A DNA stretch of 64,000 bases from Gemmatimonadaceae bacterium. Lineage in GTDB: Bacteria > Gemmatimonadota > Gemmatimonadetes > Gemmatimonadales > Gemmatimonadaceae. Position 1 is the stretch's first letter, and each line of letters starts with the position of its first letter. The notes below the pieces were generated by a model. The model saw only the letters and a list, made by a program, of their open reading frames with translations, did no database searches and had not been told where the DNA came from. Positions 29,518 to 58,839 of the stretch are shown one piece after another. Position numbers and translations under genes: made by a program. The DNA lies in contig JADLCY010000001.1 of assembly GCA_020846935.1 (NCBI GenBank), positions 558,001-622,000 of the forward strand. The letters are read 5' to 3'.

Positions 29518-30567
29518 ATGCGCTCTCTCATTGTGACTGGCTTGTTGCTCCTCCCCTGCGCGACGGCAGCGTCACAGGAGCCGACCGGGTGGGGGCGCGA
29601 CTCGCTGGTCTTTCATACATTCTCGATCGCCGCGATCGATCGGCGGACGGGTGAGGTGGGCGTGGCCGTCACCACGCGCGTCGCGTGCGTGGGCAACGGC
29701 GTGCCGTGGGTGCGCGCCGGTGTGGGTGCGGTGGCCACGCAGGCCAATACCAGAACCGAATACGGGACGGAGTTGCTCGACGCGATCGCGCAGGGCGAGG
29801 CGCCGGAGGCGGCGCTGTCGCGGCTGCTGCAGCGTGATTCACTCGCGACCTCGCGGCAGGTGGGTGTGATCTCCGCGAGCGGTGCCGCGGCGCAGCACAC
29901 CGGATCCGCCACGCGCGCCTGGGCCGGCCACCGTACCGGGCCCTCATACGTCACGCAGGGCAACCTGCTGGTGGGCAAGGAGGTCATCGACGCGGTCGCT
30001 ACCACGTTCGAGGCGAGCGAAGGGCAGCCGCGCCACCTGGCTGACCGACTCATCGAGGCACTGGCCGCGGGCCACGCGCGCGGCGGTGACGCGCGCAAAG
30101 GGCGCGCGCAGTCCGCAGCCGTCATCGTCGCCGATGCACGGCCAGGCCGCTCCCGTCGCCCCGACGGCGTCACGGCAAACATCTCGGTCTGCGAGCATCC
30201 CGAGCCGGTCGCCGAGCTCCGCCGCGTCTATGACGCGGTGTCGCAGACGATCGGGTTCCGCACGCTGCAGGCGTTCAGCGGCAACGACGTATGGCAGCTC
30301 AAGGTGATGCTGCACGCCCTCGGTCTGTATCGGAGCGATCGGACCGAGCTGCCACGCGACACCGAGGCCTTGACCTACACGGCCGATGCCGTGGCCGCTG
30401 TGGATGCCTTCCGTCAGGCGGAGGGCCTCGCCGGGCCCGCGGCCGGTTCGCCGTCGGGTCTGGTGGACGCCGAGCTGGTCGATCGGCTCTGGCGTGCCCT
30501 GGAGCGGTCCGGCAAGGCCCGCCAGGTGCGTGAGCGGTTGCTGGACGTGACCGCGGTACGGCGGTAG
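29518..30567 (+). CDS. Secreted DUF1028 protein with C-terminal peptidoglycan-binding-like domain
   Basis: A 349-residue exported protein (signal peptide to about ASQ). Residues about 30-235 match DUF1028: FSIAAIDRRTGEVGVAVTTR, then GVGAVATQANT and VTQGNLLVG. The family has an Ntn-hydrolase-like fold and lacks an established substrate. A C-terminal part (about 245-330: FSGNDVWQLKVMLHALGLY and AVAAVDAFRQAEGL) resembles the PG_binding_2 domain often joined to DUF1028. It follows the importer operon by 27 bases on the same strand. Confidence 0.8.
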   Translation: MRSLIVTGLLLLPCATAASQEPTGWGRDSLVFHTFSIAAIDRRTGEVGVAVTTRVACVGNGVPWVRAGVGAVATQANTRTEYGTELLDAIAQGEAPEAALSRLLQRDSLATSRQVGVISASGAAAQHTGSATRAWAGHRTGPSYVTQGNLLVGKEVIDAVATTFEASEGQPRHLADRLIEALAAGHARGGDARKGRAQSAAVIVADARPGRSRRPDGVTANISVCEHPEPVAELRRVYDAVSQTIGFRTLQAFSGNDVWQLKVMLHALGLYRSDRTELPRDTEALTYTADAVAAVDAFRQAEGLAGPAAGSPSGLVDAELVDRLWRALERSGKARQVRERLLDVTAVRR

Positions 30568-32534: not shown

Positions 32535-34145
32535 TCACGAGGTCGCCAGGGCGTGCAGGAGGTCCACGTAGAACTTCTCCAGCTGCGCGAGTCCGGCAAC
32601 CTTTGACCCCGGCGCGGGCTCCATCAGCATGAACTCGTCCGGTGCGTGCTGACCGGTGCCGTAGCCGAGCCCGCCCATGACCATCGGCAGTTTGAGCACG
32701 TCGGTGAACACGTAGTACGGCGCGCTGCCGGCAAGGCGCGGCGCCACGGTGACCTTGAAGCCATACTTGTTGTAGGTCGCGATCGTGGCCTTCACCAGCG
32801 CGGCCTCCACCGACGTCTGAGCCGGCGGATATCCGCTCAGTTTGCGCAGGACGACGTCGGTGAAGCCCTGGCGATCGAGATGCCGTCGAATGAGCGCGAG
32901 GGCGCTGTCGGGGTGCTGGTCGGGGACAAGGCGCGAGTCGAGCTTGGCTGTGGCCACGTGAGGCAGAATCGTCTTCATGCCCGGACCGGTGTAGCCGGAC
33001 CAGATGCCGTCGACGTTGAGCTGCGTGTCGAACAGGTAGCGCGCGAGCGACTGCTGCCCACTGAGGCTGTCGATCCATCGCGCGACGCCAAGGGCCTGGC
33101 GCTGCCCCGCCTCTCCGGCGGTCCACGTGTCGAGCATGCCGTTCACGAGCCGCTGCTCCTCGTCGGATGGCGCGCGGATCGCATCGTAGTATCCGGGCAC
33201 GACGATCGTGTTGCCATCGGGCGTCGTCAGGCTGGCGATCGCCTGGGTCAGTCGCAGCGTGGGCGAGTCGGTGATGACCTTGTACGACCCGTGGATCTCG
33301 GCGCGTGACGGACCGCCGTGTGGCCCGCCCCTCGCCTCGAGCTCGAACGACACGATGCCCTTCACCCCGAGGTACATGCCGATGTCGCCCTGCGGATCCT
33401 GGGCGTTGAAGGGAAAGAACACCCCGTTGGCCGTGCGCAGGCGATCCGCGTACTTCGCGATGACCTCCTCCATGTGCGGCGAACCGAGTTCTTCCTCGCC
33501 CTCGGCGACGACCATGAGGTTGACCGGGAGCTTGTGGCCTGAGCGGATGATCGCCTCGAGCGCATTGAGAAAGGCACGCTCGGGACCCTTTTGATTGGTG
33601 ACGCCGCGCGCCATGAGCACCTTGCCCATCGGTCGATCGACGAGTTGGCCGGCAAAGGCGTCGACGGACCAGCCGGTGGGCTCCACCGGCTGCACGTCGT
33701 ACATCATGTAGACGACGAGTGTTCGTGCGGCCCCGGCGTCGTAGTAGCCCCAGACGCCCGGGTGCCCGCTGGTCGGTACGATCTCGGCTTCGGCAAAGCC
33801 GAGCGCTTTGAGGTCGTCCCGGACCAACCGCGCCATGTCCTGGATGCCGTCGTTCTGTGCGGAGACCGAACGTTGTCGGACCCAGCGCTGGAGGTTGGCG
33901 AGGTGCCGCGGCAGGTTCGCGTCGATCCAGGCATAGGCTTCGGGGTGCGTGCCCTGATATGCGGGAATGGTTGTCGCGCTGAAGCGTTCCGTGGTGCTGA
34001 GCGTGATCGGTCGTCGGCCCGCGGTGACCGCGTCGCTCTCGGGCGCCGCGGTGCAGCCCGCGATCACACCTAACGAAGCAAGGGCAAGGACGCGGGTGAA
34101 CCTGGTGGCCTGGCGCGGGCGAGGGGCGACCGACGTGGAGGGCAT
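32535..34145 (-). CDS. M20-family metallopeptidase-like lipoprotein with altered metal site
   Basis: A 536-residue lipoprotein (lipobox VIAGC near residue 31 from the ATG at 34145; an upstream GTG at 34184 is possible). The chain follows the M20 dipeptidase layout: a YDVQPVEPTGW block, EGEEELGS with the catalytic Glu pair, LGVKGIVSFELEARGG of the dimerisation domain, and a late GQHAPDEF with the last His ligand. However, the first His ligand (usually GHYDVQP) is Met (MMYDVQP), and the bridging Asp (usually GxxDxKG) is Asn (GVTNQKG). Either it is inactive or binds metal differently, or it belongs to a divergent M20 clade. It diverges from the GMC gene. Confidence 0.7.
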   Translation of the reverse strand: MPSTSVAPRPRQATRFTRVLALASLGVIAGCTAAPESDAVTAGRRPITLSTTERFSATTIPAYQGTHPEAYAWIDANLPRHLANLQRWVRQRSVSAQNDGIQDMARLVRDDLKALGFAEAEIVPTSGHPGVWGYYDAGAARTLVVYMMYDVQPVEPTGWSVDAFAGQLVDRPMGKVLMARGVTNQKGPERAFLNALEAIIRSGHKLPVNLMVVAEGEEELGSPHMEEVIAKYADRLRTANGVFFPFNAQDPQGDIGMYLGVKGIVSFELEARGGPHGGPSRAEIHGSYKVITDSPTLRLTQAIASLTTPDGNTIVVPGYYDAIRAPSDEEQRLVNGMLDTWTAGEAGQRQALGVARWIDSLSGQQSLARYLFDTQLNVDGIWSGYTGPGMKTILPHVATAKLDSRLVPDQHPDSALALIRRHLDRQGFTDVVLRKLSGYPPAQTSVEAALVKATIATYNKYGFKVTVAPRLAGSAPYYVFTDVLKLPMVMGGLGYGTGQHAPDEFMLMEPAPGSKVAGLAQLEKFYVDLLHALATS

Positions 34146-34220
34146 GGGCTGGCGGGCTGTGATTGCGGTGGCGCGGGAACACACGTCCGAGACGGCGGCT
34201 CGTTCATGAGCCTGGATCGG

Positions 34221-34276
34221 AACGCTGGAACGCGGGAACGCGGGAACGCGGGAACGCAGGAACGCAGGAACGCAAC
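34221..34276. repeat. 8-bp tandem repeat (AACGCGGG), seven units
   Basis: Seven consecutive 8-base units: AACGCTGG, three AACGCGGG, two AACGCAGG and AACGCAAC. They sit in the 291-base divergent region between the M20-like gene (minus) and the GMC gene (plus), about 160 bases before the GMC start. The frame of the GMC gene is open through the array, but the sequence there is low-complexity and not protein-like. Confidence 0.9.
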
Positions 34277-34436
34277 GTTACGACGTGGTGCAAGGGGCCG
34301 CGCCCCCTGGCGTGCCGGCCGTCGGCCGCGAACGCGAGCGCGTGTCGTGCGGCGGGCGGGCGCAGGGGGAGCGCGGTCGAATCGCGGCTTCGGCCAGCCG
34401 GGCGTATATTCGCCGCATCACCCAGCGGAGTGCGCG

Positions 34437-36230
34437 GTGTTCCTCAGCAGTCCCAAGTCGCAGACGTCGTACGACGCGATCGTGGTGGGGTCCGGCGCTG
34501 GCGGTGGCATGGCCGCGTATCAGCTCGCCGTGGCCGGGCTCAAGGTGCTCGTGCTCGAGGCGGGCCGGCGCTACGACCCGGTCACCGAAACGCCGATGTT
34601 CAACCTCCCGCGTCAGGCACCGTTGCGCGGCGCCGGGACGCGCGAGAAGCCGTTCGGCTTCTACGACGCCACGGTCGACGGCGGCTGGAACGTGCCGGGT
34701 GAGCCGTACACCACCGCGCCGGGCAGCGAGTTCATGTGGTGGCGTGCGCGCATGACCGGCGGGCGCACCAACCACTGGGGTCGTATCTCGCTCCGCATGG
34801 GGGCCTACGATTTCAAACCGAAGACCCGCGACGGGCTCGGCGCCGACTGGCCCATCGCGTACGAGGACCTCGCCCCGTACTACGATCGCACGGAGATGCT
34901 CATCGGCGTGTACGGCGGGGACGACGACCTCGAGAACACGCCACGATCCTCGCCAGGCGTGCTGATGCCCGCCCCCGCTCCGCGGGCGACCGAACTCCTG
35001 ACAAAGAAGGCCTGCGGGCCGTTAGGCATCCCCGTGATTCCGGCGCATCTCGCGATCATGTCGCAGCGCCAGGATCACCGGACGCTCCCGCAGAAGATCC
35101 ACCCCGGTAACCGGCTGGCCCAGCGCGTCCTGGCCGAGTCCATGCGGCAGCGCATGGCGTGCTTCTGGGCCACGCCGTGCGGCAACGGGTGTTCCATCCG
35201 CGCCAACTTCCAGAGCACGACGGTGCTTCTTCCGCCGGCCATCGCCACCGGTAACTGCGACGTCGTGTCCGACGCCATGGTACGCGAGGTCATGGTCGAT
35301 GCGGCGGGGCGCGCGACCGGGGTTCGCTACATCGACAAGCGCACGCGCACCGACCGCGAAGTGCGAGCGCGCGTGGTGGTGCTGGCCGCGAGCGCATGCG
35401 AGACGGCGCGCATCCTGCTGAACTCGCGCAGCGCGCCCTTCCCCAACGGGCTCTCGAACGGCAGCGGCCTGGTGGGCAAGTATCTCATGGACACCGTCGG
35501 CGCGGGCATCGGCGGGCAGATCCCGGCGCTGGAGCGCTGCCCACCGCACAACCAGGACGGCGCCAGCGGCATGCACATGTATATGCCGTGGTGGCTCTAC
35601 AAGGAGCAGATCGGCGGTCAGCTCGGATTTGCACGCGGCTACCACGTGGAGTTCGGCGGCGGGCGCGACATGCCGGGCCCCGGGATCTTCGGCGGACTGG
35701 AGAACTACACCAACGGCGCCTACGGCCGCCGCTTGAAGGAAGAGGCGCGGCGCTACTACGGCTCGTTCATGTACTTCGATGGCCGCGGTGAGATGATCCC
35801 CAACGAAGACTGCTACTGCGAACTCGACCCCGAGGTCACCGACCAGTGGGGCATCCCCGTCCTCCGCTTCCATTGGAAGTGGTCGGAGCACGAGACGCGT
35901 CAGGCCGCGCACATGGTGAAGACGTTCGCCGAAGTCGTCTCGGCGATGGGTGGCAAGGTGAATGGCGCCGTGGAGACGGATGGGTCCAGGGTGATTGCCC
36001 GCGGCGGCCAGATCATCCACGAAGTCGGTACCTGTCGCATGGGGACCGACCCGAAGACGTCGGTACTCAACGCGTGGTGCCAGTCGTGGGACGTGAAGAA
36101 CCTCTTCGTCACCGACGGCGCACCGTTCGTGTCCAACGCTGACAAGAACCCGACACTCTCCATCCTCGCCCTGGCGTGGCGCACCTGCGACCACATCATC
36201 GACGAGCTTTCGAAGAGGAACATCGGATGA
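34437..36230 (+). CDS. GMC-family dehydrogenase large subunit (FAD)
   Basis: A 597-residue flavoprotein of the glucose-methanol-choline family, of the type paired with a gluconate-2-dehydrogenase subunit 3. The FAD site VVGSGAGGGMAAYQLAVAG is near residue 15, MTGGRTNHWGR follows, and the C-terminal catalytic region holds IIHEVGTCRMGTDP and ADKNPTLSILALAWRTCDHI. The GTG at 34437 is preferred because GGAG lies six bases upstream and the FAD motif then sits at the usual distance. It has no signal peptide, so it is probably carried out with its Tat partner encoded next (ATGA overlap). It oxidises an alcohol or sugar; the exact substrate is unknown. Confidence 0.9.
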   Translation: MFLSSPKSQTSYDAIVVGSGAGGGMAAYQLAVAGLKVLVLEAGRRYDPVTETPMFNLPRQAPLRGAGTREKPFGFYDATVDGGWNVPGEPYTTAPGSEFMWWRARMTGGRTNHWGRISLRMGAYDFKPKTRDGLGADWPIAYEDLAPYYDRTEMLIGVYGGDDDLENTPRSSPGVLMPAPAPRATELLTKKACGPLGIPVIPAHLAIMSQRQDHRTLPQKIHPGNRLAQRVLAESMRQRMACFWATPCGNGCSIRANFQSTTVLLPPAIATGNCDVVSDAMVREVMVDAAGRATGVRYIDKRTRTDREVRARVVVLAASACETARILLNSRSAPFPNGLSNGSGLVGKYLMDTVGAGIGGQIPALERCPPHNQDGASGMHMYMPWWLYKEQIGGQLGFARGYHVEFGGGRDMPGPGIFGGLENYTNGAYGRRLKEEARRYYGSFMYFDGRGEMIPNEDCYCELDPEVTDQWGIPVLRFHWKWSEHETRQAAHMVKTFAEVVSAMGGKVNGAVETDGSRVIARGGQIIHEVGTCRMGTDPKTSVLNAWCQSWDVKNLFVTDGAPFVSNADKNPTLSILALAWRTCDHIIDELSKRNIG

Positions 36231-36943
36231 GTGACACCACGCCGACCCCGGGCACGTCGCCACTGCCTGACGAGTCGCTCGATGGGCGCGGGCGCTCGAG
36301 GCGCCGTGCGCTGCAAGTCCTCGCCGTTGCGGCGGTCACACCGGCGCTGCCGTCGCCCGGCTTCGGAGCGCCCGCCACACCCGATCCCGCGGTGGTCGAA
36401 CCTGACGAGTCGCAGGCGACCGCGGCCGGACCGCGAGGCACACCCTCCGATCCCGACCTGCTGCGGCCGCGGATCACCTGGTCGAACAAACTCACCGCGC
36501 CGGAGATGGTGACGCTCACCGCGCTGTGCGACATGATCATTCCGGCCGACAGCCGCTCACCGAGCGCGTCGGCCGTGGGTGTGCCGGGCTACATCAATCA
36601 CTGGGTGAGCGCGCCATACGACGGCAACCAGCGCGAGCTGGTGCGGCTGCGCGGTGGGCTTGCCTGGCTCAACACCGAGAGTCGTCGTCGGTTCGGCCGC
36701 ACCTTCGCGCGCGCGAGTACGACGCAGCGGGCCGCGATCTGTGACGACATCTGCTTTCTTCCCAACGCGAGGCCAGAGCACCGAGCCGCAGCGCGCTTCT
36801 TTGATCGCGTGCGCGACCTGACGGCCGAGGGGTTCTACACCACCGACGAAGGGATGAAGGACATCGGGTATGTCGGCAACGTGGCCCTGCCCCGCTTTGA
36901 TGGTCCGCCACCGGCGGTATTGAAGCACCTCGGCCTCGCCTGA
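36227..36943 (+). CDS. Gluconate 2-dehydrogenase subunit 3-like, Tat-exported small subunit
   Basis: A 238-residue protein with a twin-arginine type leader (GRSRRRALQVLAVAAVTPAL). The mature part follows the subunit 3 family: LTALCDMIIPADSRSPSA, VPGYINHWV, LRGGLAWLNTESRRRFG and GFYTTDEGMKDIGYVGN. It overlaps the GMC gene by four bases and has AGAGGAA upstream. In this family the small subunit provides Tat export and stabilises the flavoprotein, which fits the leaderless large subunit. Confidence 0.88.
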   Translation: MSDTTPTPGTSPLPDESLDGRGRSRRRALQVLAVAAVTPALPSPGFGAPATPDPAVVEPDESQATAAGPRGTPSDPDLLRPRITWSNKLTAPEMVTLTALCDMIIPADSRSPSASAVGVPGYINHWVSAPYDGNQRELVRLRGGLAWLNTESRRRFGRTFARASTTQRAAICDDICFLPNARPEHRAAARFFDRVRDLTAEGFYTTDEGMKDIGYVGNVALPRFDGPPPAVLKHLGLA

Positions 36944-57329: not shown

Positions 57330-57456
57330 GCCTGAACACACGGTCGCGTCCGGCGCTACGCCGGCCACGAGGAGGGTGCCGACGAGCGTATTGTTGTGGT
57401 TGGCCGCGAGGATCGCGGGCCGGGCGACGGGGAGGCGGTCCATGGCCCGGCCGCGA

Positions 57457-57515
57457 GATGCAGGACCAAGACGGGGGTGGCCGACGACGCATGTCGGCCG
57501 CCCCCGTTCTGCATC
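57457..57515. other. Long stem-loop between the metalloprotease and VOC-fusion genes
   Basis: The arms 57471-57485 and 57493-57507 pair over 15 bases (one G-T wobble) around a seven-base loop. Outside a small internal loop, GATGCAG (57457-57463) pairs with CTGCATC (57509-57515). No T run follows. It sits in a 280-base gap (57330-57609) with no gene. It may stop transcription in a factor-dependent way or protect an mRNA end. Confidence 0.7.
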
Positions 57516-57609
57516 GAGGCGGTGCCGTCGAATCACGCTGCGTCTGGACAGGCTTCCCTCACGTCTGCCGTTTACAGGGCGGCACCCTCCCTCACAACGA
57601 CGGTACACG

Positions 57610-58839
57610 ATGCACGGGCAATTCACCTGGTACGAACTCACGACACCTGACGTGGGCGCGGCGACGCGATTCTACCCGACCTTGAGCGGCTGGGGCACTC
57701 AGACGTTCGATGGGGACTACATGCTGTTCACAAACCGAGACGTGCCGGTAGCCGGGATCTTTCGGCTGAGCGACGAGATGGCGGGCCACGGCGTGCCACC
57801 CAACTGGATGCCATACGTCGAAAGCAGCAACGTCGACGACACCGTGGCACGCGCGGTGTCACTCGGCGCCAGGACCCTTCATGGGCCCGCCGAGATTCCC
57901 GGCACGGGACGGTTTGCCGTGGTGCAGGATCCCCAGGGCGCGGTCTTCGGCGTGTACAGGTCCGCTCATGCATCGGGCGCGTGGGACGGCACCGCGGCCG
58001 TCGGTCGGTTCTCGTGGCACGAACTCATGACGACTGACCGCCGGGCGGCGTTCGAGTTCTATCGTGACCTCTTTGGATGGGACGCGATCACCGAGAGTGA
58101 CATGGGGGATGGCTTGATGTACGCCATGTTCGGCAAGGGCTCGGCGATGTACGGCGGCATGTATGACAAGCTTCCGGGCATGGAGCAGTTGCCGTCGTGC
58201 TGGCTGGTGTACCTGTGCGTGAAGGACGTTGGCGAAGGTGTTGAGCGAGCGACCGGGGCTGGTGCGACCGTGGTGCGACCGCAGATGGACATCCCCGATG
58301 GATCGATCGCGGTCCTCAACGATCCTCAGGGCGCGGCGTTCGCGCTGCACCACCTGAACCCGATTCGCTCCTCCGCGACGCCGCCCGCGCGGGCCGCGAA
58401 GAAGGCCACCGGATTGAAGGCGGCCAGCAAGGGGGCAAAGGCGACCCCAAAGGGCAAGGCGCGCGCCGCGACTGGGTCGGGCGCCACGAAGGCGAAGAAG
58501 GCAGCGAAGAAGGTCACGGCATCATCGCGTCCAGCGGGTCGCAAGGCCGCGAAGTCGGCGGCAAGGAACCGGCCGAGGAAGGCCGCGAAGCCGTCAGCCC
58601 GCAGGGCCGCGAAGCCGACCGCTCGCAAGGGCGCGAAGCCGACCGCTCGCAAGGCCGCGAAGCTGACGGCCCGCAAGGGCACGAAGCTTACGGCCCGCAA
58701 GGCCACGAAGCCGGCGTTGCACAGGACGACGAAGCGCCCCGCCCGCCCGACGACCAGGGCCGCCACCCGGAAGTCCGCGCAGCGCGTCGCAGGGCACTCG
58801 ACGCGGTCGCTGCGACGAGGGCGCGCCCGCAAGCGCTAG
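57610..58839 (+). CDS. Two VOC domains fused to a histone H1-like basic tail
   Basis: A 409-residue protein. Residues 1-118 and 131-248 are two VOC modules (FTWYELTTPDVGAATRFY with VVQDPQGAVFGVY; FSWHELMTTDRRAAFEFYRD with VLNDPQGAAFALH), the arrangement of glyoxalase-like two-domain proteins. From about residue 252 to the end the chain is almost only Ala, Lys, Arg, Thr, Pro, Gly and Ser, with repeats such as PTARKGAK and LTARKATK, resembling bacterial histone H1-like (AlgP/HupB-tail) sequence. The tail probably binds DNA or another polyanion. The frame is continuous, with no stop or shift at the junction. The ATG at 57610 directly begins the first VOC strand. Confidence 0.85.
   Translation: MHGQFTWYELTTPDVGAATRFYPTLSGWGTQTFDGDYMLFTNRDVPVAGIFRLSDEMAGHGVPPNWMPYVESSNVDDTVARAVSLGARTLHGPAEIPGTGRFAVVQDPQGAVFGVYRSAHASGAWDGTAAVGRFSWHELMTTDRRAAFEFYRDLFGWDAITESDMGDGLMYAMFGKGSAMYGGMYDKLPGMEQLPSCWLVYLCVKDVGEGVERATGAGATVVRPQMDIPDGSIAVLNDPQGAAFALHHLNPIRSSATPPARAAKKATGLKAASKGAKATPKGKARAATGSGATKAKKAAKKVTASSRPAGRKAAKSAARNRPRKAAKPSARRAAKPTARKGAKPTARKAAKLTARKGTKLTARKATKPALHRTTKRPARPTTRAATRKSAQRVAGHSTRSLRRGRARKR
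58591..58710 (+). repeat. Five 24-bp coding repeats in the histone-like tail
   Basis: Five consecutive units of 24 bases encode eight residues each (PSARRAAK, PTARKGAK, PTARKAAK, LTARKGTK, LTARKATK). The second and third differ at one base; the outer ones differ more. Unit number could change by slippage without disturbing the reading frame. Confidence 0.9.

Follow-up and report, generated by a model that had tools for sequence, protein, structure and literature searches.

The window, by which we mean the whole 64,000-nucleotide stretch of Gemmatimonadaceae DNA analyzed here, carries a short octanucleotide array between the divergent genes of a lipoprotein-like M20 peptidase and a GMC oxidoreductase (Table 1). 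Upstream of M20, 73 bp separate the likely ATG at 34145 from the array, and the longest open reading frame in that frame starts at 34184. We placed the GMC start at the GTG at 34437 because similarity to orthologs begins there. Translation from this conserved start gave an N terminus with no signal peptide by eye, and the gluconate 2-dehydrogenase subunit 3 gene downstream of GMC encodes a twin-arginine-like N terminus, also by eye. Pairs of GMC proteins and gluconate 2-dehydrogenase subunit 3 are co-exported. Of the two divergent exported-enzyme genes described in the original prediction, the divergent arrangement and an M20 product with a lipoprotein-like N terminus were borne out, but a GMC product with an export signal of its own was not. 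We also considered the array as coding DNA, since the longest plus-strand open reading frame, 34206-36230, crosses it, and rejected this because ortholog similarity starts at 34437, making the 77-residue extension unlikely.

Table 1. Features at the array locus (window coordinates).
Feature	Coordinates	Strand	Basis
M20 peptidase (PF01546), lipoprotein-like	32535..34145	-	Domain match; start and lipobox by eye
Octanucleotide array	34219..34274	+	Seven units GGAACGC[T,G,G,G,A,A,A]; read from sequence, TRF, 24-mer self-matches
TATATT, presumed -10 of GMC gene	34405..34410	+	Within stretch common to G003; presumed promoter role
GMC oxidoreductase	34437..36230	+	Domain match, ortholog similarity
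Gluconate 2-dehydrogenase subunit 3-like partner (PF13618)	36227..36943	+	Domain match

The array consists of seven 8-bp units of the form GGAACGCN, with one GGAACGCT followed by three GGAACGCG and then three GGAACGCA, and the last bases of the units read T, GGG, AAA in blocks from 5' to 3'. The seven-unit repeat predicted at 34221-34276 is this same array with the register moved by 2, and its three unit variants are indeed ordered in blocks. TRF reported 34219-34273 with 6.9 copies, 95% matches, and a score of 89, and 24-mers within the array recur 8 apart. Searching the window with a two-unit pattern and up to 2 mismatches gave 8 matches, of which the array accounts for 6; 100 shuffles averaged 1.95 matches and never exceeded 5, which rules out chance for the array. 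By both the TRF score and the shuffles, the locus thus holds head-to-tail copies above chance, as a short tandem repeat should. We observed no unusual folding of the array on either strand (z of 0.03 and -1.01 as DNA and of -0.38 and -1.02 as RNA) or of the M20 leader RNA (z of -0.27). An Rfam scan of the array region returned zero matches, and a promoter and terminator pattern scan found none at the array. Worked out by hand, GGAACGCN arrays are free of stop codons in every frame, and GGAACGNN arrays are stop-free in all frames unless NN is TA, which would permit GGAACGNN arrays to persist within genes.

We consider the array a probable product of replication slippage, which would have both created and lengthened a short octanucleotide tandem repeat in weakly constrained intergenic DNA between M20 and GMC. 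Point changes in units, followed by successive duplications, would have produced the three last-base blocks. The slippage history proposed in the original prediction is therefore plausible given the identical units in blocks, and we infer that slippage was the mechanism of array growth.

Comparison with relatives, in a sample of one genome per species, showed that the array and its surroundings are not conserved. The array is absent upstream of the four closest GMC orthologs (G003, G002, G012, and G007; 83-92% identity), and the upstream neighbors of these orthologs differ from those in the window. A gene end precedes GMC in both G003 and G002; in the former it is transporter-like by eye, and in the latter it comes from a gene 72% identical to the product of window positions 29518-30567, which we label DUF1028. 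G012 and G007 have yet other neighbors. The 1.5-kb flanks of the four orthologs showed no M20 gene, and the closest M20 relative (G003) lies on a separate contig from GMC in a 760-contig assembly. The divergent M20/GMC pair is thus not seen in these four relatives. The DNA common to genus-mates comprises 34400-34498 in G003 (81%) and 34436-34500 in G002 (80%), and two other genus-mates gave zero DNA matches in the comparison. No second copy of the array occurs in five genomes of the genus, the window's own included. Just upstream of the GMC ortholog in G003 (L007, reverse strand, about 1260-1420), we observed a different degenerate tandem repeat with CCGGGATGATGAGTGAGAGAGCTTCG-like units.

The original prediction held that changes in unit number would alter promoter spacing and so switch expression on and off. 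For GMC, the position of the array argues against this. TATATT lies 26 bp before the GMC GTG and 130 bp downstream of the array end, also precedes the GMC start in G003, and has a weaker form, TAGATT, in G002; we infer that it is the -10 element of GMC. Since the array lies 130 bp upstream of this presumed -10, and DNA shared within the genus begins only at 34400, unit changes should not alter GMC promoter spacing. The array is neither between nor beside the GMC promoter elements as placed by this presumed -10, and it probably has no effect on GMC.

Unit number might affect M20, for which the array would lie in or just upstream of the leader. That unit changes switch M20 rather than GMC, through promoter spacing or leader length, is nevertheless improbable in our judgment. 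The short distance to the likely M20 ATG fits such a switch, and changes in promoter tandem repeats are reported to be phase variable elsewhere (PMC12817950). However, a sigma-70-like site scan, whose consensus may be unsuited to the host organism, gave 0 candidates for an M20 promoter, and a unit of 8 bp does not make up a full helical turn. Furthermore, the arrangement is missing at the four GMC orthologs, and the upstream DNA of two M20 relatives (L058 and L059) differs in sequence and has no such arrays. The window array advises caution against taking each repeat in a promoter region for a switch.

A role as tandem operator or sigma-factor sites is very unlikely. Every unit opens with GGAAC, which many ECF sigma factors use as their -35 word, but ECF promoters space GGAAC and CGTT by 16-17 nt, and here the units closest to the nearest CGTT (34276-34279) are 20 or 12 nt away from it. 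The arrays of relatives described below also argue against such sites, as they are found after stop codons (36/117) and inside genes (27/117) more often than upstream of starts (15/117).

Within its own genome, the window array is isolated as an exact array. Among 60 genomes, three exact GGAACGCN units occurred in 1, the window's own, and there at this place only. When 464 kb of this genome was scanned at lag 8, 3 arrays exceeded the threshold, compared with 1 in a Markov control. The two others are a CT-rich tract and a short GGCCACCA repeat, leaving the window array as the only one of the three with more than 3 clean octamers. When we searched the genome for three GGAACGNN units with up to 3 mismatches, we obtained 19 matches, 5 of which were the array and 14 further, against 5 for the reversed pattern. 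The best further match (L098) is a three-unit near-copy with a single mismatch, apparently in a reading frame.

In contrast to this isolation, three exact GGAACGNN units with the core GGAACG occurred in 27/395 genomes of a phylum sample, compared with 1/395 for the reversed pattern; control counts in these 395-genome searches were read off result rows by hand. The 27 genomes belong to families f2 (18) and f3 (3), which are in the same order, to the window's own family f1 (5), and to f4 (1). Units of the GGAACGCN type were also observed in G233, G251, G348, G220, and G387, and the unit GGAACGCG is identical in the same-family genomes G233 and G251. Beyond this sample, five-unit arrays occurred in at least 113 stretches of named genomes, including Gemmatimonadales, Streptomyces, Verrucomicrobia, and Phycisphaerae, and 7 stretches of viral contigs carry a four-unit GGAACGNN array. 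We rejected GGAACG as a uniquely favored core, as the permuted core GACGGA at period 8 was at least as frequent (35/395 versus 27/395), although GACGGA is not an independent control, since GACGGAAN arrays turn out to be GGAANGAC arrays with the register shifted. With the reversed GGAACG in 1/395 genomes and the reversed GACGGA in 15/395, other octamer arrays are therefore not rare in the phylum. Among the matches listed, the main unit tends to differ by genome, such as GGAACGGC in G116, GGAACGGG in G113, GGAACGAT in G161 and G104, and GGAAGGAC in G281 and G242. A same-family genome (G007) has a long degenerate octamer array (L038) that drifts to AGAACAGC and AAGACAGC units. In G046, a 7-mer is dominant: 400 kb contained 18 lag-7 arrays, of which 16 are GGGAAAA-like, and a Markov control gave 0. 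At four loci of this genome (L232, L237, L244, and L250), 7-bp GGGAAAA arrays form inverted pairs in the same purine-first order.

The GGAANGNN octamer arrays of relatives are dispersed and often form inverted pairs in the order purine arm, loop, and complementary arm. Of 61 distinct GGAACG arrays, the window's included, 17 (about 15 places) were accompanied within 250 bp by a complementary arm of two units on the purine-first side and 0 on the opposite side; any such arm was found at 8/572 random places. The remaining 44/61 were partnerless. When both cores and the arm GGAANGNNGGAANG were considered, we counted 41 pairs with the purine arm first and 0 in the opposite order, along with 33 unpaired plus-strand purine arrays; because 20 loci were chosen for pairs, the pair fraction is inflated but the orientation apparently is not, and lone minus-strand arrays were excluded. 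Loops of the pairs are 2-153 bp and differ among the copies inspected. The one-sided orientation of the arms calls for a mechanism.

These observations bear on the reading, rather unlikely in our view, that the window array represents a lone arm or a remnant of the dispersed octamer-hairpin repeats of its relatives, which have GGAANGNN units. Its period of 8 bp, GGAANGNN unit, and GGAACG core match those of relatives, down to the GGAACGCG unit identical in two same-family genomes, and partnerless arrays are common there, as noted above. The slight excess of degenerate matches in its own genome, including L098, points the same way. However, the array lacks the paired arms with the purine arm first, and we found no tandem complementary partner arm within 33900-34600 (700 bp). 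The sole complementary stretch nearby, 33970-33991, is a single unit of 77% in M20 coding DNA and in the opposite arrangement. Furthermore, a two-unit arm pattern gave 2 matches in the 464 kb of its own genome, the array and L098, compared with 1-2 for each of four control patterns. Position 7 of the window units is C, and the units counted in relatives and the window had a purine here in 169/230 and C in 53/230. Since there is neither a partner arm nor a clear family in the genome, we call the window array isolated and keep its membership as a rival to slippage.

Plain independent slippage has counterpoints of its own: the prevalence of GGAACG arrays over the reversed pattern in the phylum sample, the 14 versus 5 degenerate matches in the window's own genome, and a position just upstream of a probable exported protein, siting that arrays of relatives also occupy (15/117; background, 5.5%). 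The placement of 117 arrays relative to genes, with both arms counted and the chosen pairs included, was determined with a crude codon-usage gene caller against a background of 3251 random places. Arrays were found after a stop codon in 36/117 cases (background, 6.9%), with the purine arm in sense with the gene in 27 of these 36, and in the first 130 bp of a gene in 27/117 (6.4%). Inside genes we observed 27/117 (63.7%), in the last 130 bp of a gene 6/117 (7.7%), and further into intergenic DNA 5/117 (9.0%); no gene was called for 1/117 (0.9%). Individual arrays sit between tRNA-like genes (L036), at a MutL-like gene (L053), and at a UvrA-like gene (L040 and L055), as judged by eye, and some lie in apparent protein linkers.

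Signal-peptide-like N termini accompanied 10/41 pairs, a count made with neither a background rate nor a signal-peptide predictor behind it. We scored an open reading frame of at least 100 codons that begins at the first arm or shortly before it, crosses both arms, and has a strongly hydrophobic 12-residue N-terminal stretch. Among these 10, L281 and L288 look like one gene in two genomes, and L069 is doubtful; examples include L071, L066, L067, L068, L337, and L340. Complementary octamer arms with differing units are found in three genera (L336, L341, and L070) at seemingly the same site of one gene (by eye), preceded in L336 and L341 by a first arm some 150 bp further upstream; this suggests, from sequence, that octamer units may change in place. 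We think it doubtful that the window array is a stray member of a dispersed octamer-hairpin class of this order, one with a single orientation and genome-specific units, built into signal peptides, and with solo arrays as precursors or remnants. In such a class, the first arm would code for the charged n-region and the second for the end of the hydrophobic region and the cleavage region. If relatives do build signal peptides from inverted octamer arrays, repeat expansion would generate protein export signals.

Among the papers listed in searches of open-license literature, we found no description of these single or paired octamer arrays, and several known systems share some of their features. 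Xanthomonas and Nostoc carry heptamer arrays of GGGNATC that occur genome-wide and are underrepresented between divergent genes (PMC4692102). Like these, the window array has a short G-rich unit repeated head to tail in intergenic DNA, but it is single, lies between divergent genes, and has a unit of 8. Also unlike the GGGNATC heptamers, it has three GGG runs, one fewer than the four needed for a quadruplex. The TAACTGA direct repeats of Beggiatoaceae and cyanobacteria are abundant in one genome and mostly a few bases from start codons (PMC4679880); they resemble the arrays here as short direct repeats near gene starts with a unit common to distant taxa, but the TAACTGA unit contains stop codons and GGAACGCN arrays do not. 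The paired arrays of relatives resemble REP/REPIN palindromic repeats as dispersed inverted repeats, but their arms are tandem octamers and their loops vary from copy to copy, and the window array is unpaired. Borg tandem repeats are likewise present in intergenic DNA and reading frames, but their in-frame repeats have unit lengths divisible by three (PMC9879509), unlike these octamers. A tandem-repeat survey across life, whose main text omits this phylum, reports no enrichment in bacteria (PMC12699852).

The sole array in the window to outscore the octanucleotide array is 58579-58746, a 24-bp repeat that lies in frame near the C terminus of the open reading frame 57376-58839 and encodes lysine/alanine-rich AAKPTARK-like units. 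The repeats encoded there presumably resemble a histone H1 tail.
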